A stretch of DNA of 64,000 nucleotides from Cytidiella melzeri (Eukaryota; Basidiomycota; Agaricomycetes; Polyporales; Irpicaceae). The first letter of the stretch is position 1. Every line of letters starts with the position of its first letter. Location of the stretch: positions 1-64,000 of the forward strand of contig JABYQR010000071.1 of assembly GCA_022592445.1 (NCBI GenBank), read 5' to 3'. The translations under genes were made by a program, and so were the position numbers. Of this stretch, positions 3,508 through 63,912 are shown piece after piece. The notes beneath the pieces were generated by a model. It worked only from the letters and a program-made list of their open reading frames with translations. It ran no database searches and had not been told where the DNA came from.

Positions 3508-6500
3508 TCATCGCCTCGATGAACTAAGACCAGGGACTCTACCATCTGCCCACTCGAGGTCAGATGCAATAGCTTCTGTGATGTTCTCCAACGGTTTCCA
3601 AGGAATGGAGTCGAAGAGTGCTTTGGGTAATTTCTGAGGTGCGTTGGTATGTCTGGCGTGGAACTCTGCAATGCTCTCTTTCGCATTGGTCAGATTTACT
3701 GCAGGTTCCCACGTTACATTGCCTTCTCCATAGCCTTTCCATTTGACTAGGTACTGCATCTGCTTCCGATAGATCCGACTGTCTAGGATCTTTTCAACTT
3801 CATAGACCTGTTGATCATCTACTATGATCGGTGCTGGTGGTTCTGGTATGAGGCCGTTTACTTCGTTTCCTCGATACGGAGATAGCCGTTCAACGTTGAT
3901 GTTGTCGTGAATACGATATCCGGATTTGAGTTTGATCCGATACGTATGTTCACCGGTCTTCTGAAGAACTGTGAAGGGACCAAGCTGTCTAGGCCCTAGC
4001 TTGTCAGACTGCTGATGTACTTTGACGTTCTTGGAAGACAACCACACGAGGTCCCCTTCCTTGAAGACTGGAGTAGCTCTACGGGTATATCCGGAAGCTT
4101 CGGCCATCTTTTCCTTAGAGAGACGCGAGGCAGCTTCGGCTTCTGCCCGAACCTGTCTGAGCTTTTCTAGGCGTGCGTCTAGATTTGGCATACGACTTTG
4201 ACGACCAATAGGAATGGTAAAGTCCGGTAGATACCCGTACATGACTTCAAACGGAGAGTGCTGAGTAGATGAGTTGACCCGGGAGTTGATGGCGAATTCA
4301 GCCACTGGGATGTATTCTGCCCAATCATCTTGTCGTTGGTCAACAAAGAGTCGTAGAATCTTTTCTACCTCTTGATTGGTTCTTTCCGTTTGACCATTGG
4401 CCTGAGGGTGGTAGGCGGTAGTCATGGCGCCAGTGATGCCTAGCCGTTTGTACAACGCTTGCATGACACGAGCTGCAAACTGGGGTCCTCTATCGGATAT
4501 AAACTGTCGGGGAATGCCGTGGAGCCTGAACACCTCTCTGATGTGAAGGTCGGCTATACCGTCTGCTGTGACCGTAGACTGAGTTGGAATTACATGTGTT
4601 TGCTTGCTGTACAAGTCTGTGTACACGGCAATCATGTCAAATCCCTTACTACGTGGGAGTGGTCCGACTAAGTCTACACCGACCACCTGCCAAGGTCCGT
4701 CTGGTACTTCGATAGGCTGTATTGGGGCAACCGGGTGCTGTGCTGATTTGGTTCGCTGACACTTGTCACATCCGAGGACGTATTGTTCTACAAATGATGC
4801 CATACGAGGCCACCAATAGTGCCGTGTTACTAGTTCCAGGGTTGCGTGTTTACCAGGGTGTCCTGCTGGTAGTGCATCGTGGCATCGACGTACAATCTCC
4901 TTTCGGACTTCTCGATCTTTGGGAATGTACAGCTTTCCTTTGTAGTACACCAGTCCGCTGTCTTCTTCCCACTCTAGTCCACCATCTGTCAACTTCCGGG
5001 GTCCGTCCTTCTTTAGCTTGGCTAATCCCTGAACCACCTCTGCTTCTCGAAGGCTGATGTCTCTGATTCGAGCTTCCAATGGGTCTGTTTCTAGAGTACT
5101 TGAGGCAGCTATGGTTTGGAAGTATTCGGGTTTCAGCACAACTTGTTCTTTGTTGTCTGATGCATCTAGCACTTCCAAGGTTCTAACTCTGGACAGCGGG
5201 TCACCTTGAGTAAGGGTCTTTCCGGGCTTGTGTGTTAACACAAAGTCAAACCGACTGAGGTACAAAGACCACCGAGCTTGTCGTCTAGACAGGTCCTGGG
5301 CGGTTCTCCAATACTGCAGATTCTGATGATCTGTGATGATCTCAAAGGGCGCAGGTAATCCTTCTAGGTAGTGACGCCAATCTTCGAGAGCTCTGATGAT
5401 AGCGAGCATTTCTCGATCATAGATCTCGTAGTTCCGTTCGGCTTCGGCCATAGACTGAGACCGAAATGCTACAGGGTGCCATTGTCCATCCTCTAGTTTC
5501 TGCAGTAGAACTCCTCCAGTTGCAAAGCCAGACGCATCGACTTCAATACGTGTGGGACGATCAGGTTCCCATGTTACTAGAATAGGTTCCTGAGTGAACG
5601 CATCTTTGAGCATCTGAAAGGCGTTCTGCTGTGCTTCTCCCCATTTCCAAGGTTGGTCTTTCTTGGTGAGATCATGTAGGGGACGGGTATGCCGTGCAAA
5701 GTCCTTGATGAAACGTCGGTAGAAGTTGGCAAATCCAATGAAGCCGCGCACATCACGGAGGTTCTGTGGTACCGGCCAGTTGGTGATAGCTTCTATTTTA
5801 CCCGAGTCCATACGGATCTTTCCGTTACCAATGATTAGACCTAAGTACTCGACTTGTGACTGTTCAAATTCGCATTTCTCGGGACGAAGGTACAGGTCAT
5901 TGGCTTCAAGTCTTGCTAGTACTTCATGGACAAGTTTACGATGTTCCGTGATGTCTGAGCTGAAGATGAGGATGTCATCCAGGTACACAGAGACCTTTCC
6001 TTCCGCGATGAGATCAGCAAAGATGGAGTTCATCATTGCTTGAAACGTGGCTGGAGAATTGGTCATGCCAAACAACATCACCTTAGGCTCGAACAGCCCT
6101 CGGTTTGTCACAAATGCACCCTTCCATTCGTCATTTTCTTTGATCCGAATGTTATGGTAACCCCATCGTACGTCAAACTTAGTGAAGATTTTGGCTTGAC
6201 GAAGTCGATTGGTAATGTCTGATACCAAGGGGAGTGGGTAGCGGTTTTTGATTGTGATGTCATTCAACCGTCGATAATCCTGAACAAGCCGAAGCTTGCC
6301 ATCCTTCTTCTTAACGAAGAATACCGGTGAGGCCATGGGCGACTTGGATGGGACAATATATCCTTTCGCTAGGTTTTCCTCAATAAACTTGTCTAACTCC
6401 GCTTGTTCATTCGGAGACATGGGGTAGACCTTGGATCTGAACATCTTTGGGTTCTCTGTTAGATCAATCGTGTGATCCCAGGGTTGGTGCTCTGGGAGGC

Positions 6501-7322
6501 GCTGTGATGCTTCTTCGGAAAAGACTTTCTGGTGTCTGCGGTATTCTTCTGGAACCATCTGTTCGAACGTCTGTTGCTCTTTGGATTGATGGGCCTTAGC
6601 CGCAATGTCTGTAGAGTACGTATAGCTAGCACAGGACCAAAGCTCTTCTTTGGTGTCCTGAATGATACCGGCTCTGAGCCAGGCTCGTCTCTGCTTTCGA
6701 TTGGCTGTGATAGACTGGAAGGGTTCGAAGTCTTCTTCGGCTTCCAGTTCCATTTCTCCGGTAGCCCAATTGATCTTGGGGTTTGCTTTGCGAAGCCAGG
6801 GTAGGCCTAGAATGCAATCTTCTGGTCCGATGTCCGTGACCAAAAATGTTGCGTTTTCTTTGATAGCCCCAACTTGTAGTTCGAGCTCTGCTCTGTGTGT
6901 GATACGTCCTCCTTGATTTAGAGTCCCATCGATGTTGTGGAGTGGGATCTGCCTTTCTAAGGGGACTGTACGTACTCGGTGCCGGTTGACAAAGTCTTGA
7001 CTCAGGAATAAAGCGGTGGCTCCTGAGTCAATCATAGCTTTGATGCCCTTTTCTCTGAACACTCCTTTGAGCGTAATTGGAACTCGGAAATGCATGCTAA
7101 GCGGGTCTATTTCAGGCACTATGCAAGACGACAAGGTTTCGTAGTAGTTATACATGTCGTTAAATAAAACTGAAGACTGCGAATTGGGCTGCTGTGCGGG
7201 GCGGGTATTTACTACAGGGGCGTTAAAAACTATGTCCGTGGGGGAATCATCATTGTCCTCCACTTCTTCTATGTAGGTCTTTCTAGAGGGACTCGAGGGT
7301 GCGGTTTCACCTGGAGTCCGTT
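3508..7322 (-). CDS. pol: Pol polyprotein of E2 (PR-RT-RNase H-IN-chromodomain), intact
   Basis: An uninterrupted frame of about 1,250-1,270 aa. Domains in order (residues counted from the GTG at 7263): aspartic protease with IDSGAT near 77-82; reverse transcriptase with FDVRWGYHN near 364 and catalytic YLDDIL near 429; RNase H with EVDASG near 575 and the TDHQNL segment; integrase zinc finger with paired CxxC near 831, then the core with SDRGPQF and a Glu in GQTERTN; a GPF-type module (LGPRQLGPF); and a C-terminal chromodomain (VEKILDSR to WEP). This order is that of a chromovirus, Tf1/sushi group. The frame has no ATG near its start and sits -1 to gag, so expression by frameshift at the gag stop is inferred. 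All catalytic residues I looked for are present. Confidence 0.95.
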
Positions 7323-8579
7323 CTAAAAATCCCTTTGATTACCCAGCTGCTTGACTTGGTCCGTGAGCGATGACATCTGCTTCATAATGGCATCGTAGTC
7401 GAACGGACTTGGTGACGAGGAGCTGGCGACGGAGGCGGCGGGTGGATTAGGCAGGGGCCTTGTAGACAAGGACGACGAGGGAGCCGGAGTTGATGGATCA
7501 AACAGAGTATTTGCAGCCACCTTCTGTTGCCTAGGTGGGTACCCAAGGAATCGACTTTGGCAAACCTGCGTCTGATGGTTGCCACCACAATGTCCGCACA
7601 GTTCATGATCATGTTTTCCGTCCTTCTTCTGATGATCCTTCGATCCGCATCCGTAACATCTGCCGTTCATAGCCTTCATGAAGTCGGCGCGTGTTTTTCC
7701 GTTAGGTCCAACCTTGGTAGCATCGATTTCCATGGCATTGGAGTCACGAGGTGCTTGGACGAAGGGAGCCGGGGACGAGGTGGAGACCGGAGTGGTTTTG
7801 AACAGGTTGGGGACCGTTCGACCTTGTTCACGAGCTTTCTCTTGAGCTCGAACACGAAGACGATTGTCAATGTCTGTAGCAACATTGATCAGGTCTACGA
7901 GAGTGACGTGAGGCCTTGCGGTGTGAACCAGCTCATCCTTGATGGTAGTACTCAGGTGTTCGTAGTACCGATCACGAAGGTCTTGTGTCGAGTAGCCGGT
8001 CCTGTCCATGATTTCCCTGAATCGTGCCGTGTATTCCGGAACCGTTTTCTTGCCTTGCCATAGCTCCCTGAGCTTGGCCTTAGCATCCACCATTTCGTCA
8101 ACTGGTTCAAATCGTGCTTTGAACGCCGCCTTGAAATCGTCCCAATCACCATTGAATGCCATTTGATGGCTGGCAATTAAATCCATGTGGGGCGTAGCCC
8201 AAACTGCTGCATCTTCGGTCATAAATGACAAGGCCGACGAGATCCACAGATGGTCTAACCGGGTCTGACCACCTTGGGCATTGTACGGCGACAGCTTCTC
8301 ATTAAACTGTGCGTACATTGAGAAGGCAGCTAGAAAGCGACGCGCGTCACTACTTGCATTGCCCTTGAAACTCGCGGGTTTCTCTACAACCCTTTCCCTT
8401 GACCTGTTGTTGACCGGTTGCTGGTTTTGAACCAGCGCTGTGATGGCTTGTGTCAGCTGTTGCTGACCGAGGAGTAGCGCATGCAGAAGTTGTTCTGCTG
8501 TGGGGGGCGGAGACGGTTCTTGTGCGGGGGCTGGGGTTGCTGCCCTAGAGGCATGCTGAGACACGTTGGTGGAATCCAT
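7323..8579 (-). CDS. gag: Gag of E2
   Basis: 418 aa from the first ATG (8579) after an ATG-free leader of about 1.4 kb. It begins with a Pro/Gln-rich stretch, has a central capsid-like region with a conserved EKPASFKG block and regularly spaced aromatic residues, and a nucleocapsid part with two zinc-knuckle-like motifs: CYGCGSKDH and CGHCGGNHQTQVC (CX2CX3HX4C). A coiled-coil-like tail (LTDQVKQLG) ends the protein. The frame is open upstream of this ATG back to the ORF0 stop, so an N-extended or ORF0-fused form is possible. Homologous to the family A Gag. Confidence 0.88.
   Translation of the reverse strand: MDSTNVSQHASRAATPAPAQEPSPPPTAEQLLHALLLGQQQLTQAITALVQNQQPVNNRSRERVVEKPASFKGNASSDARRFLAAFSMYAQFNEKLSPYNAQGGQTRLDHLWISSALSFMTEDAAVWATPHMDLIASHQMAFNGDWDDFKAAFKARFEPVDEMVDAKAKLRELWQGKKTVPEYTARFREIMDRTGYSTQDLRDRYYEHLSTTIKDELVHTARPHVTLVDLINVATDIDNRLRVRAQEKAREQGRTVPNLFKTTPVSTSSPAPFVQAPRDSNAMEIDATKVGPNGKTRADFMKAMNGRCYGCGSKDHQKKDGKHDHELCGHCGGNHQTQVCQSRFLGYPPRQQKVAANTLFDPSTPAPSSSLSTRPLPNPPAASVASSSSPSPFDYDAIMKQMSSLTDQVKQLGNQRDF
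7325..7329 (-). promoter_or_regulatory. Candidate -1 frameshift site at the E2 gag stop
   Basis: The gag frame ends GAT TTT TAG. Shifting back one base reads TTT TTA GAA and enters pol. The pol frame is closed by TAA 15 bases upstream, so any shift must occur in this short window. Family A has the equivalent GTT TTT TGA. The T-run at the stop is the only feature shared by both windows. Confidence 0.5.
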
Positions 8580-8885
8580 CTGGTATTGCTCCTGTGTGAA
8601 GGTTCGATCGAAGTCTTCTTCAGGCAAGGGTGGGAGGGATTCAAGGATACGAGCTTCTTGCCAATGATGAATGGGTCGATACTGGTTTGCGTATCGACCG
8701 GGATATGCAATACCGTTGTATCGGTTTGGACAGGGCTGAGTTTCACAGGCTTCGTGTCCTTCTTCTGGGTCGTAACACTCGTCTCTGAGGGTACGGTAAT
8801 TGAAAGCGTGTGGGTAGTTCTCACAGGGGAGATGATCTCTAGACCAAACACTACTTCTGGGACTTTGAGAAGCCACACTGTATTT
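8580..8885 (-). other. Open, protein-like segment between ORF0 stop and Gag ATG (family B)
   Basis: About 102 codons in the gag frame with no ATG and no stop. The protein-like sequence (PCENY, YRPIHHWQEAR, LPEEDFDRT) is well preserved in the decayed copy E4. In E4 the Gag Met itself reads ATA. The segment could be translated by readthrough of the ORF0 UAG or from a non-AUG start, or be leader RNA constrained by other signals. Confidence 0.5.
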
Positions 8886-9713
8886 CTAGAATGATACGAA
8901 GTACTCGTCCGACCAAACTCTGTCTAAAGCTTTGAACACTTGTTCGTAATTCCTTCTTAGACCCTTGAAACTGATTCCTCCTATTGCCTTTAAACCCCAA
9001 TCCAGCAGCTGCCACTCACGCTGAGTGATGACAGTGGCTCGGGTTGGTAGCTCCTCCAGAAGCTTTTCTAACTTCTGTTTCTCTTTCTCAAAGTTACGCC
9101 TCGTGCCTTCGTGAAGCTGTTGGTACTTGTTGATGGTGGGTAGAATCGACAGGCGTTGGAGGGTGGTGGTGAGCTTTGGAGTGAAGATTCCTTGAAGGTC
9201 TTCAAGGGTGTGCTTTTGGAAGTCGATGAGAGTTGGCTTTGCGGCTATGAGGGCTGCACCAGGGTTGGTGGCTGGCCGGGCTGGGAAGCGTTCTGCTAAC
9301 GAAGGCTTCTTAGGAAGACTTGCTAAGGCCTCGGCTCGTTCGCGTGCGGTACGGGCAGCGAACTCTTTGGACTCAGCACGGAGTTTCTCAAACTCCTCTG
9401 CAGTGGGGAATCTGTGTGTGGGGGCAGAACCCTTGGGTTTACGGCGACCGACGTAGGAGGCAATAGCCTTGAGCTTCTTCTCCGTGTACTTGTGGCTCTT
9501 GCCCCGTGCGTGCTCTGCGTTGAGTTGATCAAACACGGCCTGGGGCAAGGCGCGATGGATCTTGACTTCTCGACGCGCTTGGTTCAGATCCTTGTGCAAG
9601 GGATCTGGACGAGCGGTGAAACGGGAGTGGGATTCTTTCGGCACTAAGAATCAACCACGGAAAATGAACGAGTCAGCGATCAAGCACGTCAAGACGGACG
9701 GCGATGGCTTACT
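8886..9713 (-). CDS. ORF0 of E2: methionine-free extra protein upstream of gag
   Basis: 252 aa after splicing. The ATG is split: A at 9713, then the 69-bp intron 9712-9644, then TG. The protein has no Met besides the start. Its N-terminal half is basic and Arg/Lys-rich with a long helical stretch (EEFEKLRAESKEFAARTA); the middle has LIDFQKHTLEDLQGIF; the C-terminus has REWQLLDWGLKAIGGISF. Family A ORF0 shares LIDF, GIF-PKLT, REWQLLDWG-KAIG-xSFK-LR-NY, so the gene is conserved between families. It ends in UAG and the gag frame continues in phase. I recognise no enzyme or domain; a matrix-like or RNA-binding role is only a guess. Confidence 0.8.
9644..9712 (-). other. Intron creating the ORF0 start codon (E2)
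   Basis: A 69-bp intron on the minus strand: exon ...GAGA, donor GTAAGC, branch-like GCTGAC, acceptor TTAG, exon TGCCGAAAG. Joining gives ATGCCGAAAG. The same layout is at 34280-34348 (E4), and family A has equivalent introns at 29585-29657 and 61822-61894. Confidence 0.75.
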
Positions 9714-9804
9714 CTCAAACGTAGGGGGGAATAAACTTTTTAAAACTGGGGGGACAGGAAGACTTGATCCAAGCTAAGGGCAGTCGTGCCGGTAGCTGTG
9801 TGGT

Positions 9805-9958: not shown

Positions 9959-10019
9959 CTGGCAGTGCAAATGACGAAGTTAATAGCATGCTTATACTAG
10001 GTTACATTGAGTAACTCAC
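9959..10019 (-). other. LTR intron of family B (E2 5' LTR)
   Basis: 61 bp, donor GTGAGT, branch-like CTATTAAC, acceptor GCCAG. It is bounded by two copies of a 21-bp direct repeat ending GCACTGCCAG, one just before the donor and one ending at the acceptor. The same segment is missing from the E2 3' LTR and from the solo LTR at 22256. Confidence 0.7.
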
Positions 10020-10174
10020 CTGGCAGTGCAAATGACGAAGAGGTCAAGATGCAGAACCAGGGAGGGTAAGGGGTACTATATATACTGTGTCTGGGTGGTC
10101 TGTGCACCAGTTCCCACACTAGGGACTGGAGTAACTGTGGGACTGGAGTAACAATAGAACAATAAGGAACCCGG

Positions 10175-26700: not shown

Positions 26701-27540
26701 TCGATTTGATAGTCTCAGGAGCGTCTGGTTTGAGATCAATCAAATGGTCCCAGGGCTGATGCTGGGGTAGTCGGTTAGACTCTTCCTCAGAGAAGACTTT
26801 AGCGTGTTTGTGATACTCTGATGGAACGATGTCTTCGAAGGAGCGTTGAGCTTTAGCTTCGTTTGCTTCGGCCGTCAGCTTAGTGGAGTAGGTGAAGCCG
26901 GCCATACACCAGACTTCGTCAGTGGTGTCTTGGATAATACCGGCTTTGACCCACTGCCTACGTTCTTTGCGATTACCGTCAACCTTCTGGAAAGGTTCAT
27001 CAGGAGATTCTTCCGAGCCACTCGGAATTGTCATTTCTCCTTTTTCCCAGTTAACGGTAGGGTTTACGCGTTGAGCCATGGTAGCCGAAGAATGACGTCT
27101 TCTGGACCTAAGTCCGTGACGAGAAACTCTGCCTTTTCCGTGTGATCTCCGACTGTGAGTGTAAGGCGAACGAAGTGCGTTAATCCGCCAGCTTTATTCT
27201 TAGTTCCGTCAATGTTATGCAATGAGATGACCCTTTGAGCGGGTGCTGAATAATCTTATGCTTCTTGACGAACTGGTGACTGATGAATAAAGCCGTAGCT
27301 CCTGAATCGATCATAGCAGGAACGCGAATGCTTCTATTCAGACCTTTAACTAGTACATGTACACGGAAATGAGACGATAACCGATCTAGCACGATATAGT
27401 ACACGAGGAGATAGTAGACGATGGGCATGGAGTAGACGTTGTACACGAAGAAACGAGGCAGAAGACGAGGACGACGAAGGAGGCAAGGACAGGGTATCTG
27501 GGGGACTCGCAGCTGCGGCTGTGTCACGAGTCCGCTTCAA
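23739..27540 (-). pseudogene. pol: Pol of E3, broken by frameshifts and a stop
   Basis: Pol starts in the -1 frame at the gag stop (KRTRDTAAAASPPDTLSLPP) but changes frame within the Ser-rich linker. Protease IDSGATALF is at about 27300. Further one-base shifts occur near 27240, 27075 and 26650. Reverse transcriptase with YLDDILIW is open (25989-26606) and ends at a TAA in place of Tyr in FANFY. RNase H, integrase (CDRCQ finger, SDRGPQF, GKVERKN) and chromodomain (YVVEKVLDSR to SWEP) are open from 25850 to 23739. With almost identical LTRs, the damage is either very recent, was inherited from a template moved in trans, or is partly sequencing error at short runs. Confidence 0.9.
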
Positions 27541-28784
27541 AAAACCGCATTAATCTTTGCTGCCATCTCATCCATTTGCTTCTTCTGGATGTCAAGCATG
27601 TCCTTGAGCGCAGCAATTTTAGCATCCTTGTCGTTGGACGCGTCTTGCTTGGTTGCAGTAGTAGTCGACGATGTCGACGAGGTAGCGGCAACCTTTTGTC
27701 CCTTAGGGACGCCTTGGAGCCGTTTTAGGCAAACTGCCCCCCAGTGACCGGTGCCACCGCAGTGGTTGCAGACCGGGTCGTCTGGGTGCTTCGAGTCCCT
27801 CTTCTTGTGACTCTCAGATCCGCAAACCGAGCAGCGCTTGCTCATCTCCTTCTTCCATTTCTGGAAGATCTCCTGTTTGCCCAGACCCGCAAAGAGCGAG
27901 TCAAACGAGGCGGAGAAACGGGAGGCATCGATCTCCATAGCATTGGGATCGCGGAACGCCTGCTGATGGGACTTGCCGTGCCCTGACGAGCTGTCCACCA
28001 TGACCTTGCCGGTGCTGTTGCGAAGATCGGCAAGTTGAGCATCGACCGCTTTGCATTGGTCTTTGAGTGCGTCATAGGTGGCGGCACGGGTTTGAAAGTA
28101 CGAGACACGTTGCAAGTACTCGGTGCTCAAGCTCGACTTGAGGCGGTCAAAGAGGTCCTGCTGGCTCCAGCCAGTGCGAGGGGCCCATGTCTCAAACTCG
28201 GAGATGTGGGCGGCGAAGGTCTTGTTGCCTTGCTTCATGTTGGCGACTTTCGTCTTGGCCTCCATGACAGCATCTATAGGCTCAAATTTGGCTTTAAAAG
28301 CCTCGATAAATGTGTCCCAGTCATTTCCAAATGCTGGTTTGCTATTGGCTAACTCCTCAATGTGAGGGCGAGCCCAATCAGCGGCGTCCTCCTGCATGAA
28401 GGACAGGGCGCTTGTGATGAGTTTATGAGGATCAAAGATCCTCGCGCCGTTGTTGTCCACCCGGACCTGGCCTTGCGCGTCTTGCTGGAAGAACACTTTT
28501 CCTTGATTTTGCGCCCATACTATGAACGCGTGGCGGAAGAGTCGGGCTTCCGACGATGTTTTCCCCTTGAAGGAGACTGGTTTCTCAACTATGCTTCTTT
28601 CCCGAGAAGCGTGGGTAGCAGCGGCAACCGCTGGTGTCTGTGCAGCTGCAAGTGCAGCCACCTGATTGGTCAGGTCTACCATCTTTTGTGTCAAGACGCC
28701 CAACATATTCAGGACGTCTTGCTGGCTCAGGTTGGCGACTGGGGCAGCTGGGGCAGCAGGGGCGGCGGGCTGGTTGGGGTCCAT
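27537..28784 (-). CDS. gag: Gag of E3
   Basis: 415 aa from ATG (MDPNQPAAP). Pro/Ala-rich start, predicted coiled-coil-like LTQKMVDLTNQVAALAAA, the EKPVSFKGK block shared with family B, a capsid-like centre and two zinc motifs: CSVCGSESH and CNHCGGTGHWGAVC (CX2CX4HX4C). The C-terminus is helical (DKDAKIAALKDMLDIQKKQM). This is the first ATG after the RNA start in this copy. Nearly identical to E6 Gag. Confidence 0.93.
   Translation of the reverse strand: MDPNQPAAPAAPAAPVANLSQQDVLNMLGVLTQKMVDLTNQVAALAAAQTPAVAAATHASRERSIVEKPVSFKGKTSSEARLFRHAFIVWAQNQGKVFFQQDAQGQVRVDNNGARIFDPHKLITSALSFMQEDAADWARPHIEELANSKPAFGNDWDTFIEAFKAKFEPIDAVMEAKTKVANMKQGNKTFAAHISEFETWAPRTGWSQQDLFDRLKSSLSTEYLQRVSYFQTRAATYDALKDQCKAVDAQLADLRNSTGKVMVDSSSGHGKSHQQAFRDPNAMEIDASRFSASFDSLFAGLGKQEIFQKWKKEMSKRCSVCGSESHKKRDSKHPDDPVCNHCGGTGHWGAVCLKRLQGVPKGQKVAATSSTSSTTTATKQDASNDKDAKIAALKDMLDIQKKQMDEMAAKINAVF
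27539..27544 (-). promoter_or_regulatory. Candidate -1 frameshift site at the E3 gag stop
   Basis: The gag frame ends GTT TTT TGA. The -1 frame reads TTT TTG AAG and continues as pol with a sequence alignable to the family B pol start (both have R-T, then T-A-S-P). The -1 frame is closed by TAA 12 bases upstream, so the shift window is tiny. Confidence 0.5.
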
Positions 28785-28856: not shown

Positions 28857-29658
28857 CTAGATCCACTCAAAGTAGCTATCACTATTGACTACGTTAAGTT
28901 GTGCTAAAACTCTATCGTAGTTTTTACGAAGCTGCTTGAAGGAAACTTTCCCGATTGCTTTACAACCCCAATCCAAGAGCTGCCACTCGCGGTCTGTTGT
29001 GACGGGAGCGAGATCGTCGACTCGGTTGAGGAAACGATTTACTTTGCTGACAAGGTGAAGCAACGCGCGACGGTGGTCGGGGTTGGCGCGGTTCAGGAGT
29101 TCTTCAAGCTCCGTGAGAGCTTGCAAACGAGTGCGGACAGCGGTGAGTTTTGGCTTGAAAATGCCTACGAGATCAACCGGTGACAACTTCTTGAAGTCGA
29201 TCAACACCGGCTTTGGTGCAGCGGGGGCGGGAGTTGGTGCAGGGAGCTTTGGTAGTCGCTCTGCAAAGGTGAGCTTGTGGGTCTGTTGCTCAGCTAAGGT
29301 GCGGTCACGCTCCTCAGCAGCTCGTTCTCCGTATGCTCGTGCAGAGGCGCGGAGTTGGCGATTTTCCTCGTATGAGGGGACGGTGAGGGTAATGCCTTTA
29401 ACAGGCGGCTTCTTGGACACGTACTTCGCGACAGTGACCAGGTCCTTGTCAGACCAACGATGAGGTTGACCACTCTTGCGCTTTTCAGCGAGAGCGTCGA
29501 GGAAAGATGGTGGAAGAGACCTTTTGAGCTGAGGCTCAGTGGTAGGGAGGTTCTTAGAGAAACGGGGGCGCGTGTCTTTAGGCACTAAACAACGCGCAGG
29601 GGGTAGAAACGGACGACGTAAGCGTAGCTCAACGGTATGAAGAGACCGGAGACGTACT
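28857..29658 (-). CDS. ORF0 of E3: methionine-free extra protein
   Basis: 242 aa after splicing (A at 29658, intron 29657-29585). Basic N-terminus (MPKDTRPRFSKN), a helical RASARAYGERAAEER stretch, a Pro/Ala linker (PAPTPAPAAPKP), VLIDFKKLSPVDLVGIF, a leucine-rich helical segment and REWQLLDWGCKAIGKVSF near the end. No internal Met. It ends UAG; the frame stays open for 24 codons and joins gag in phase. Homologous to family B ORF0, with highest conservation in the C-terminal half. Role unknown. Confidence 0.82.
29585..29657 (-). other. Intron creating the ORF0 start codon (E3)
   Basis: 73 bp; exon ...GACGA, donor GTACGT, acceptor GTTTAG, exon TGCCTAAAG. Joined: ATGCCTAAAG. Identical length in E6. 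Confidence 0.72.
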
Positions 29659-29719
29659 CGTCAAACAGGAATAAACTTTTTAAAACGGTGGGAATGGGGG
29701 ACCCAGGGTTTTCACAACG

Positions 29720-29731: not shown

Positions 29732-30490
29732 TGACACGGAGACAAGGCTCGACGTGACAGATAGGGACACGAAGTGGATATCGACGAGGAGGTGGTGGCA
29801 GGCGTGTAGCACAGTGCTCTCACCAGCTATCAGACTTTATACAAGCTGTCTAGCCCAGTAAAGACCAAGTTAGAATTGATACTACCCGCTATGTAGTACA
29901 AGAGGGGGTTTGCTTACCTAGCCCAGTAAAGACCAAGAGGTCGAGATGGGGGCTAGGAGCGTACATGTAGCTGCTTATATAGACTTCAGGGACCTGCGCA
30001 CAGACCATGTTGAGGGCAGGCTTTGCAAGAAGCCGTGTGAACGAAGAACAAAAGAACTACCTAAAGGAGAACAATAGCTATTGTCTAGACTTTGCCAAGA
30101 ACTCTACCCGTGAGAGAATCTATCTAAAAGGAGACCAACTATTGTATTCCATTCCCACACCTGTGAGAACATCCTTCCATAAAGAGAACAATAGGGAAAG
30201 AACAATAAGGAGCCCATGTGGACGGTATCTATGACGTCAAACCCTAGCTATGGGCTGAGCCATGTGTTTGTAGCCATGTGGTCTTACTTAAGCTAAGTCA
30301 CATGCCAGTGTGACGTAGTAGCAAGTAATGTGACCGTGTGGAGCGTCTAAGCCACGTGATACGGGCGCTTAATAGACGTGCAAAGGAGTTTATGCAGAGA
30401 GAATTGAAACTAGGTTGTAGCCCGGAGTTTTACAGATAAAAACAAGAGGTAAATTGCGAAAATTAAGGGCTAGTCAGGCCATCCATGACA
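29732..30490 (-). repeat. 5' LTR of E3 (family A)
   Basis: 759 bp. TATATAAG-type box, R start ATCTCGACCT about 30 bp downstream, intron 29850-29917 (68 bp, donor GTAAGC, branch TTCTAAC, acceptor CTAG). The intron is bracketed by a repeat ending GGTCTTTACTGGGCTAG. No ATG lies between R and the Gag start. Confidence 0.93.
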
Positions 30491-60989: not shown

Positions 60990-61748
60990 TGTCATGGATG
61001 GCCTGACTAGCCCTTAATTTTCGCAATTTACCTCTTGTTTTTATCTGTAAAACTCCGGGCTACAACCTAGTTTCAATTCTCTCTGCATAAACTCCTTTGC
61101 ACGTCTATTAAGCGCCCATATCACGTGGCTTAGACGCTCCACACGGTCACATTACTTGCTACTACGTCACACTGGCATGTGACTTAGCTTAAGTAAGACC
61201 ACATGGCTACAAGCACATGGCTCAGCCCATAGCTAGGGTTTGACGTCATAGATACCGTCCACATGGGCTCCTTATTGTTCTTTCCCTATTGTTCTCTTTA
61301 TGGAAGGATGTTCTCACAGGTGTGGGAATGGAATACAATAGTTGGTCTCCTTTTAGATAGATTCTCTCACGAGTAGAGTTCTTGGCAAGGTCTAGACAAT
61401 AGCTATTGTTCTACTTTAGGTAGTCCTTTTGTTCTTCGTTCACACGGCTTCTTGCAAAGCCTGCCCTCAACATGGTCTGTGCGCAGGTCCCTGAAGTCTA
61501 TATATACTGCTACATGTACGCTCCTAGCCCCCCATCTCGACCTCTTGGTCTTTACTGGGCTAGGTAAGCAACCCCCTCTTGTACTACATAGCTGGTAGTC
61601 ACAAATACTAACTTGGTCTTTACTGGGCTAGCAACTTGCATAAAGTTTGATAGCTGGTGAGAGCATTGTGCTTCAAGCCTGCCACCACCTCTTCGTCGTC
61701 TTCCACACCGTGTCCCTTTTAGTTGCGTCGAGCTTCGTCTCCGTGACA
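60990..61748 (+). repeat. 5' LTR of E6 (family A)
   Basis: 759 bp, TGTCATGG to TGACA. TATATATA near 61499, R start 61534-61543, intron 61564-61631. The last ATG before the Gag start is near 61514, upstream of the predicted RNA start. Confidence 0.94.
61564..61631 (+). other. LTR intron of E6
   Basis: 68 bp, donor GTAAGC, branch ATACTAAC, acceptor GCTAG. The repeat TTGGTCTTTACTGGGCTAG precedes the donor and also ends at the acceptor. Confidence 0.72.
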
Positions 61749-61750
61749 TT

Positions 61751-61760
61751 AGGTCGAGAT
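61751..61760 (+). promoter_or_regulatory. E6 self-priming primer-binding site
   Basis: AGGTCGAGAT, complementary to ATCTCGACCT at 61534-61543. Confidence 0.8.
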
Positions 61761-61820
61761 CGTTGTGTAAACCCTGGGTCCCCATTCCCACCGTTTTAAA
61801 AAGTTTATTCCTGTTTGACG

Positions 61821-62622
61821 AGTACGTCTCCGGTCTTCTCATACCGTTGAGCTACACTTACGTCGTCCGTTTCTACCCCCTGCGCGTTGTCTAGTGCCCA
61901 AGGACACGCGCCCCCGTTTTTCTAAGAACCTCTCTACAACGGAGCCTCAGCTCAAGAGGTCTCTTCCATCATCGTTCCTTGACGCTCTCGCTGAAAAGCG
62001 TAAGAGCGGTCAACCTCATCGCTGGTCTGACAAAGACCTGGTCACCGTCGCGAAGTACGTGTCCAAGAAGCCGCCTGTCAAAGGCATCACCCTCACCGTC
62101 CCCTCTTACGAGGAAAACCAACAACTTCGCGCTTCTGCCAGAGCATACGGAGAACGCGCCGCTGAAGAACGTGCTCGCACTCTAGCTGAGCAGCGAACCC
62201 ACAAGCCAACTCTTTCAGAGCGGCTCGCCAAACTTCCTCCGCCCACTCCCGCCCCCGCAGCACCCAAACCGGTACTCATCGACTTTAAAAAGTTGACGCC
62301 GGTAGATCTCGTCGGCATCTTCAAGCCAAAACTCACCGCTGTCCGTACTCGCTTGCAAGCTCTCACAGAGCTTGAAGAACTACTGAACCGCGCCAACCCC
62401 GACCACCGTCGCGCCCTGCTTCACCTCGTCAACAAGGTCGATCGTTTCCTCAACCTAGTCGACAATCTCGCTCCCGTCACAGCAGACCGCGAGTGGCAGC
62501 TCTTGGACTGGGGTTGTAAAGCAATCGGGAAAGTTTCTTTTAAGCAGCTCCGTAAAAACTACGACAAAGTTCTTGCGCAGCTTAACGTAGTTAATAACGA
62601 TAGCTACTTTGAGTGGATCTAG
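61821..62622 (+). CDS. ORF0 of E6: methionine-free extra protein
   Basis: 242 aa after splicing (A at 61821, intron 61822-61894, TG at 61895). Same domains as E3 ORF0: basic start, RASARAYGERAAEERA helix, Pro/Ala linker, VLIDFKKLTPVDLVGIF and REWQLLDWGCKAIGKVSF near the end. No ATG in any frame across the whole gene. It stops at UAG (62620-62622). The 14 codons to the Gag ATG are open and in phase; E3 has 24 codons there, a difference of exactly 10 codons, so the frame is kept across an indel. Function unknown. Confidence 0.83.
61822..61894 (+). other. Intron creating the ORF0 start codon (E6)
   Basis: 73 bp; exon GACGA, donor GTACGT, acceptor GTCTAG, exon TGCCCAAGG. Joined: ATGCCCAAGG. Confidence 0.75.
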
Positions 62623-62664
62623 ACAGTCCACAATTTTGTAAACAATTGCATACATTTCCTCGAC

Positions 62665-63912
62665 ATGGATCCCAACCAGCCCGCCGCCCCCGCTGCCCCA
62701 GCTGCCCCCGTCACCAACCTGAGTCAGCAAGACGTCTTAAATATGTTAGGTGTCTTGACACAAAAAATGGTAGACCTTACCAATCAGGTGGCTGCACTTG
62801 CAGCTGCACAGGCACCGGCGGTTGCCGCTGCTACCCACGTTTCTCGGGAAAGAAGCATCGTCGAGAAACCAGTCTCCTTCAAGGGGAAAACCTCGTCGGA
62901 AGCCCGGCTCTTCCGCCACGCGTTCATAGTATGGGCGCAAAATCAAGGAAAAGCGTTCTTCCAGCAAGACGCGCAAGGCCAGGTCCGGGTGGACAACAAC
63001 GGCGCGAGGATCTTTGATCCTCATAAACTCATCACAAGCGCCCTGTCCTTCATGCAGGAAGACGCCGCTGATTGGGCTCGCCCTCACATTGAGGAGTTAG
63101 CCAATAGCAAACCAGCATTTGGAAATGACTGGGACACATTTATCGAGGCTTTTAAAGCCAAATTCAAGCCTATAGATGCTGTCATGGAGGCCAAGACGAA
63201 AGTCGCCAACATGAAGCAAGGCAACAAGACCTTCGCCGCCCACATCTCCGAGTTTGAGACATGGGCCCCTCGCACTGGCTGGAGCCAGCAGGACCTCTTC
63301 GATCGTCTCAAGTCGAGCTTGAGCACCGAGTACTTGCAATGCGTCTCGTACTTCCAGACCCGCGCCGCCACCTATGACGCACTCAAAGACCAATGCAAAG
63401 CGGTCGATGCTCAACTTGCCGACCTCCGCAACAGCACCGGTAAGGTCATGGTGGACAGTTCGTCGGGACATGGCAAGTCCCACCAGCAAGCGTTCCGCGA
63501 CCCCAATGCGATGGAGATCGACGCATCCCGTTTCTCCGCCTCGTTCGACTCGCTCTTTGCGGGTCTAGGCAAACAGGAAATCTTCCAGAAATGGAAGAAG
63601 GAGATGAGCAAGCGCTGCTCGGTTTGCGGATCTGAGAGTCACAAGAAGAGGGACTCGAAGCACCCCGATGACCCGGTCTGCAACCACTGCGGTGGCACCG
63701 GTCACTGGGGGGCAGTTTGCCTAAAACGGCTCCAAGGCGTCCCTAAGGGACAAAAGGTTGCCGCTACCTCGTCGACATCGTCGACTACCACTGCAGCCAA
63801 GCAAGACGCGTCCAACGACAAGGATGCTAAAATTGCTGCGCTCAAGGACATGCTTGACATCCAGAAAAAGCAAATGGATGAGATGGCAGCAAAAATTAAT
63901 GCGGTTTTTTGA
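62665..63912 (+). CDS. gag: Gag of E6
   Basis: 415 aa, nearly identical to E3 Gag. ATG at 62665 is the first ATG after the predicted RNA start, about 1.13 kb downstream. Pro/Ala-rich start, capsid-like centre with EKPVSFKGK, zinc motifs CSVCGSESH and CNHCGGTGHWGAVC, helical end. Stop TGA at 63910-63912 follows a T-run (63905-63910) with pol in the -1 frame. Confidence 0.94.
   Translation: MDPNQPAAPAAPAAPVTNLSQQDVLNMLGVLTQKMVDLTNQVAALAAAQAPAVAAATHVSRERSIVEKPVSFKGKTSSEARLFRHAFIVWAQNQGKAFFQQDAQGQVRVDNNGARIFDPHKLITSALSFMQEDAADWARPHIEELANSKPAFGNDWDTFIEAFKAKFKPIDAVMEAKTKVANMKQGNKTFAAHISEFETWAPRTGWSQQDLFDRLKSSLSTEYLQCVSYFQTRAATYDALKDQCKAVDAQLADLRNSTGKVMVDSSSGHGKSHQQAFRDPNAMEIDASRFSASFDSLFAGLGKQEIFQKWKKEMSKRCSVCGSESHKKRDSKHPDDPVCNHCGGTGHWGAVCLKRLQGVPKGQKVAATSSTSSTTTAAKQDASNDKDAKIAALKDMLDIQKKQMDEMAAKINAVF

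Follow-up and report, generated by a model that had tools for sequence, protein, structure and literature searches.

A start codon probably made by splicing, and AUG-free leaders upstream of Gag, in chromoviruses of Cytidiella melzeri

How can a retrotransposon accommodate a whole gene in its 5' leader and still translate Gag? The question is raised by three elements, E2, E3 and E6, in a stretch of 64,000 nucleotides (nt) from the basidiomycete Cytidiella melzeri (contig JABYQR010000071.1, positions 1 to 64,000; the window). The elements are Ty3/Gypsy chromoviruses. The Pfam domains of E2 show the chromovirus order Retrotrans_gag, protease, reverse transcriptase (RT), RNase H, integrase, SH3_Tf2-1 and chromodomain (E3 and E6 were scanned in part). 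E6 and E3 belong to family A and E2 to family B (B1). E4 (copy L033) is a decayed family-B copy, and copy L082, termed B2, represents a third family. Upstream of Gag each element has a long open reading frame (ORF), ORF0. Very probably, splicing of a short leader intron makes the sole upstream AUG and thereby the start of ORF0, whereas retention of this intron leaves an AUG-free scan to Gag.

A sequence-only reading of the window had described these leaders as free of ATG, and the counts bear this out. On the plus strand of E6 there is no ATG from 61534 to 62664 and the first one is found at 62665. E3 has none from 29947 to 28785 of the minus strand, where the first ATG is at 28784. In E2, positions 10050 to 8580 (minus strand) contain ATG only at 10007 and 9989, both inside an intron of the long terminal repeat (LTR) at 10019-9959. 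The ATG-free runs of these three elements are the longest of the window on both strands (1151 nt on the plus strand, 1410 and 1182 nt on the minus strand), followed by runs of 761 and 757 nt. The B2 copy L082 follows the same plan, with two ATG in the LTR intron and then 1408 ATG-free nt up to Gag. The features of the three elements are as follows.

61534-61563 (+): E6 predicted RNA start and exon 1; TATATA lies ~30 nt upstream in the copies shown
First 10 nt of the E6 RNA (+): putative self-primer, complementary to 61751-61760
61564-61631 (+): E6 LTR intron, 68 nt, GT..AG; its 3' end repeats exon 1 from nt 11 on
61751-61760 (+): E6 putative primer-binding site (PBS), complementing the RNA 5' end
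61822-61894 (+): E6 leader intron, 73 nt, splitting the ORF0 start codon (A at 61821, TG at 61895-61896)
61895-62622 (+): E6 ORF0 after the junction, 242 amino acids (aa) including the split methionine (Met), stop TAG at 62620-62622
62665-63912 (+): E6 Gag (Pfam Retrotrans_gag), opened by the first ATG in the DNA past the RNA start
29850-29917 (-): E3 LTR intron, 68 nt, placed by homology and GT..AG
29585-29657 (-): E3 leader intron, 73 nt (A at 29658, TG at 29584-29583)
28857-29584 (-): E3 ORF0, 242 aa, stop TAG
27537-28784 (-): E3 Gag (Pfam)
9959-10019 (-): E2 LTR intron, 61 nt, with the sole two upstream ATG
9644-9712 (-): E2 leader intron, 69 nt (A at 9713, TG at 9643-9642)
8886-9643 (-): E2 ORF0, 252 aa, stop TAG
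8580-8885 (-): E2 spacer, 102 ATG-free codons that share the frame of ORF0 and Gag and show a coding signature
7323-8579 (-): E2 Gag (Pfam)
3508-7338 (-): E2 Pol with protease, RT, RNase H, integrase and chromodomain (Pfam scan in two pieces)

The same reading had taken ORF0 for a protein without Met. This holds for the genomic DNA only; in the spliced form, removal of the leader intron makes a Met codon. The intron (73 nt in A, 69 nt in B) splits the start codon, so that A|GT...AG|TGCC is joined to ATG CC and the excision product reads ATG CCN AAR. In both families the donor, A|GTACGT or A|GTAAGC, lies ~70 nt upstream of AG|TGCC. Donor A|GT and acceptor AG|TG are kept in all copies holding the region (30/30 A and 29/29 B). 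The genome searched (49.7 Mb, 731 contigs) also contains the joined form, at seven A places with 0-1 mismatch and at one exact B place, and all eight of these intronless copies have ATG at the junction. The A copies match E6 as far as the donor and resume at the acceptor, with the match of L075 ending 2 bases before the donor. The B copy, L083, matches E2 at 63/63 bases upstream and 75/78 downstream. At all six matched places in which a base other than G comes after the 17-nt donor flank, the sequence runs on as TGCC. ORF0 is open in five of the seven intronless A copies (242-243 aa, starting MPKDT) and broken in L069 and L075. Intronless L073 and intron-bearing L054 share 99.7% identity in ORF0.

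Leader-intron loss in family A appears to have several origins; the tree needs four changes to account for the five full-length intronless A copies, at least three of them forced by well-supported branches. No direct repeat was seen flanking the leader intron, unlike the LTR intron, which makes slippage unlikely. Exact intron-bearing places number 211 and exact intronless places 6, a ratio that suggests retention of the leader intron. Both introns, LTR and leader, are missing from copy L070. A 19-nt sequence, GTTTTAAAAAGTTTATTCC, is common to A and B in the otherwise diverged leader, 10-15 nt upstream of the leader-intron donor (61793-61811 (+); 29668-29686 (-); 9728-9746 (-)).

When the LTR intron is removed in silico, there is no AUG before Gag in E2, E3 and E6. 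When the leader intron is removed too, there is exactly one, the ORF0 start. The base at -3 of the ORF0 AUG is A in family A and G in family B; for the Gag AUG it is G in E6 and E3 and C in E2. On RNA keeping the leader intron, ribosomes would scan ~1.1-1.4 kb, ORF0 included, without meeting an AUG and would initiate at Gag. Once the leader intron is lost, initiation would occur at the ORF0 AUG. Splicing would thus choose ORF0 or Gag from one leader. Any AUG within ORF0 would harm Gag translation from the unspliced form; selection would therefore remove it, internal Met codons included. The LTR intron can hold ATG, such as the two in E2, because it would be removed from both RNA forms.

ATG counts across genomic copies, which had been proposed as a check, were obtained from 30 family-A and 30 family-B copies; these are the best-scoring loci from two genome searches rather than a random sample of the genome. 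In total they contain 7 (A) and 64 (B) sense ATG before Gag versus 434 and 552 antisense CAT. Outside the LTR intron the totals are 3 and 29, and 21 of these 29 sit in five decayed B copies (L033-L037), and in each of these C>T and G>A outnumber all other changes. Judged by the majority state of the young copies, the source trinucleotides of the 21 are ACG (14), GCG (3), AAG (2), TCG (1) and CTG (1). In E4, C-to-T change had been held responsible for the gained ATG; this is correct for three of four (ACG>ATG), the other being TCG>ATG. No ATG outside the LTR intron is present in 20/21 A and 13/18 B copies with an open ORF0, and in 4/6 A and 3/10 B copies with a broken one. In the LTR intron itself there are 2.1 ATG per kb in A and 21.5 in B (26 copies); later regions have 0-0.18 (A) and 0.14-1.0 (B).

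The expectation of about 18 ATG in 1.1 kb was too high, since dinucleotide shuffles expect 5.3 (E6), 7.3 (E3) and 11.4 (E2). Counts as low as those observed (0, 0 and 2) are reached in 6, 0 and 0 of 2000 shuffles, respectively. None of the 64 trinucleotides is more depleted than ATG in any of the three stretches, and CAT, its antisense counterpart, occurs 15, 12 and 19 times. The gag and pol genes of the same elements have 11-24 ATG per kb. Recoding ORF0 with their codon usage gives 4.6, 4.6 and 3.0 expected out-of-frame ATG (none observed), and 12, 16 and 98 of 5000 recoded sequences have zero ATG. At the gag/pol rate of 2.1%, ~5 Met are expected per ORF0 and none is present. The depletion extends to the non-coding leader as well as ORF0. 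Outside the LTR intron, 4 ATG-creating changes are seen versus 13.1 expected in the 30 A copies and 3 versus 9.2 in 24 young B copies. In six B copies set aside (L033-L038) the values are 13 and 11.0. Inside the LTR intron they are 1 and 0.7 (A) and 0 and 0.6 (young B). The other trinucleotides tested in family A all reach at least 0.6 of expectation versus 0.3 for ATG. Selection against upstream AUG on a scanned RNA form is the best reading of a depletion that is strand-specific, goes beyond the controls, includes the non-coding leader and is relaxed in decayed B copies. Base or codon composition, as represented by the dinucleotide and gag/pol-codon controls, does not account for it.

ORF0 looks protein-coding. 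Its variable sites are distributed over the three codon positions as 44/35/137 in the 30 A copies and 57/32/79 in B. The product is basic (isoelectric point about 10) and predicted to be helical. The A and B proteins (E6 and E2) are 40% identical, with homology starting at VPK, i.e. at the junction AG|TGCC. A single-sequence search with ORF0 gave one match, the Cytidiella melzeri gene model P0001 (86% identical over 47% of the query), and a profile search gave seven proteins, P0001-P0007. Compared as protein sequences, P0002-P0005 start with MPK or MSK at the junction point. Internal Met residues in P0002-P0007 number 0, 0, 1, 0, 1 and 0, i.e. two in six proteins of 254-298 aa. Gene finders can miss splice-made starts; the annotated P0001 has a different N-terminus.

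Several observations weigh against a splice-made choice between ORF0 and Gag guarded by selection on AUG. Permuting the synonymous codons of ORF0 itself expects 1.4-2.1 ATG, and zero ATG is found in 440, 329 and 843 of 5000 permutations; as these codons have themselves already been selected, the test is weak. Young B copies are also low for GTA (3 seen, 9.1 expected), GAT (1, 7.8), AGT (5, 10.3) and TAG (4, 9.8), and so are the B copies set aside (GTA 3, 11.2; GAT 4, 9.3; AGT 7, 13.1; TAG 3, 12.0). The B result therefore leans on ATG alone regaining expectation in decayed copies. One or two upstream ATG are present in five of the 18 B copies with an open ORF0, and the tolerance of ATG in the A LTR intron comes down to one distinct change, seen in four copies. 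Family B has yielded just one junction copy, and intronless copies, which make up a few per cent, may in part have spread by gene conversion. P0001, P0006 and P0007 (the latter two from Phanerochaete carnosa) have N-termini other than the junction motif, and P0001, P0004 and P0006 have one internal Met each. In family B the spacer between ORF0 and Gag resembles coding sequence and shares the frame of both, for which scanning to the Gag AUG offers no explanation. Finally, the two RNA forms from which ORF0 and Gag would be made are predicted here from DNA.

Four other explanations have to be considered. ORF0 might start on unspliced RNA at a near-cognate codon, either the genomic GTG at the acceptor or an upstream CUG or ACG, with leaky scanning to Gag and spliced copies as by-products. 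GTG is at the exact place in A and B, and rice tungro bacilliform virus (RTBV), whose ORF I starts at AUU, offers a precedent (PMC5902531). However, the splice sites and the A|TG split are present in every copy read that holds the region, splicing puts an AUG in frame with ORF0 in all three families (A, B, B2), and four of the seven homologs start at MPK or MSK. This explanation is very unlikely. An internal ribosome entry site, a shunt or reinitiation could lead to Gag, with the absence of ATG arising from another pressure. A scan of 1.1-1.4 kb is long, but by reasoning such routes do not need a leader free of ATG in all frames, and we regard them as highly improbable. It is scarcely credible that base composition, codon usage or a protein poor in Met produced the depletion as a side effect. 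The leader is C-rich (32% C in E6), and the own-codon permutation and the other low trinucleotides in B fit such an origin; opposed to it are the dinucleotide and gag/pol-usage controls, the density of ATG in gag and pol, the depleted non-coding leader and the return of ATG in decayed B copies.

Stop readthrough is also unlikely as the main way to Gag. It would turn ORF0, spacer and Gag into one fusion, and in E2, E3, E6 and L082 these indeed share one frame with one stop, while the B spacer looks coding in that frame. In family A, on the other hand, the first ATG past the ORF0 stop is out of frame with ORF0 in 10 of the 29 copies with the ORF0 end found. Eight of these ten were followed further downstream. 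From its own ATG, Gag is open for 415 codons in four (ORF0 being open in L055 and L067 but not in L041 and L043), open to the end of the available sequence in two, and stopped at 242 and 355 codons in the other two. In A, an open Gag out of frame indicates that Gag does not, as a rule, depend on the frame of ORF0. Furthermore, the stop codon differs, being TAG in B1 and TGA in B2. In family B, readthrough may occur beside scanning. Both B1 (8580-8885 (-)) and B2 (L082, 1286-1600) have the ATG-free, in-frame, protein-like spacer. Between E2 and the one B2 copy, differences by codon position are 11/6/35, with 30 synonymous and 15 non-synonymous codons; within the 24 young B copies, minority states at 15/7/14 give a weaker coding sign. 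The spacer could be read by readthrough, from a near-cognate start or through another junction. A related stretch, ECDEQPCPNRY, is carried by family-A copy L072.

The LTR intron is precisely absent in L045, L056, L068 and L070 (A) and in L029 and L030 (B). Five of these are among the 60 sampled copies, L070 being additional; copy L032 is missing its own 5' end. Slippage between repeats would yield the same product. RNA nt 1-10 are complemented downstream near the LTR end in all copies keeping the LTR-intron donor (27/27 A, 26/26 B), and the difference between the families is matched on both sides. The predicted RNA 5' end would thus be complementary to the PBS, as in the self-primed Tf1 and Tj1 of fission yeasts (PMC4600332). 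Unlike here, the accessible part of that account describes neither an ORF0 nor an intron in the LTR or the leader. In 27/27 A and 19/26 B copies the LTR intron ends in a perfect repeat of exon 1 starting at nt 11, and the other seven B copies deviate by 1-2 bases. In both families the exon 1 repeat starts right after the 10-nt self-primer complement (61534-61631; 10050-9959 (-); 29947-29850 (-)). Since the repeat starts where the self-primer would be cut, complementary DNA (cDNA) from spliced RNA would land on the 3' end of the intron and restore it. The LTR intron could be regenerated in this way during self-primed strand transfer. A programme of two introns is conceivable but doubtful. Here the LTR intron would be spliced from all RNA yet rewritten each round, as self-primed strong-stop cDNA would end exactly at nt 11 and pair, in the 3' LTR, with exon 2 and the exon-1 copy at the 3' end of the intron; the leader intron would switch the ORF0 AUG, and the basic ORF0 protein would in turn influence how its own RNA is spliced or exported, in the manner of Rev in human immunodeficiency virus.

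In Epstein-Barr virus (EBV), EBNA2 is favoured when the EBNA-LP AUG is not made. Splicing generates this AUG (PMC12451641). A start codon assembled at an exon junction is likewise found here, in intronless DNA copies and upon in-silico splicing. EBV decides by alternative splice sites, whereas in the chromoviruses retention would compete with splicing; no AUG-free ORF is described for EBV in the part of the source available. RTBV and badnaviruses (Caulimoviridae) have long ORFs I and II without internal AUG, through which scanning ribosomes reach the ORF III polyprotein, over >900 nt in RTBV (PMC5902531). The upstream ORF devoid of internal AUG, passed on the way to the main protein, is common to these viruses and to E2, E3 and E6. 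RTBV ORF I, however, is initiated at AUU, on the same RNA and following a shunt, while the ORF0 AUG exists only without the leader intron. In EVD and other Ty1/Copia elements spliced and unspliced RNA share out the protein products (PMC8892269). There the spliced short GAG mRNA makes Gag; here unspliced RNA would serve Gag and spliced RNA the upstream protein. The rice LTR retrotransposon Retrosat2 has an extra ORF of unassigned function also named ORF0 (PMC3485330), a likeness by name; the part of that report available mentions no splice-made AUG. The remark that such an arrangement is new thus holds in part: long AUG-free ORFs passed by leaky scanning have been published for RTBV and badnaviruses, and for LTR retrotransposons neither these nor a splice-made AUG was recognised in the literature searched, mostly listings and the opening lines of abstracts.

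If the splice-made choice is correct, an LTR retrotransposon keeps an accessory gene apart from Gag through a start codon that only splicing brings into being, which would explain a whole gene in the 5' leader that does not block Gag. Intronless genomic copies are a record of splicing readable from DNA, and the balance of intron retention, packaging and translation in a retroelement becomes testable. Elsewhere in the window, repeat arrays with 143-nt spacing are present at 30818-57159.
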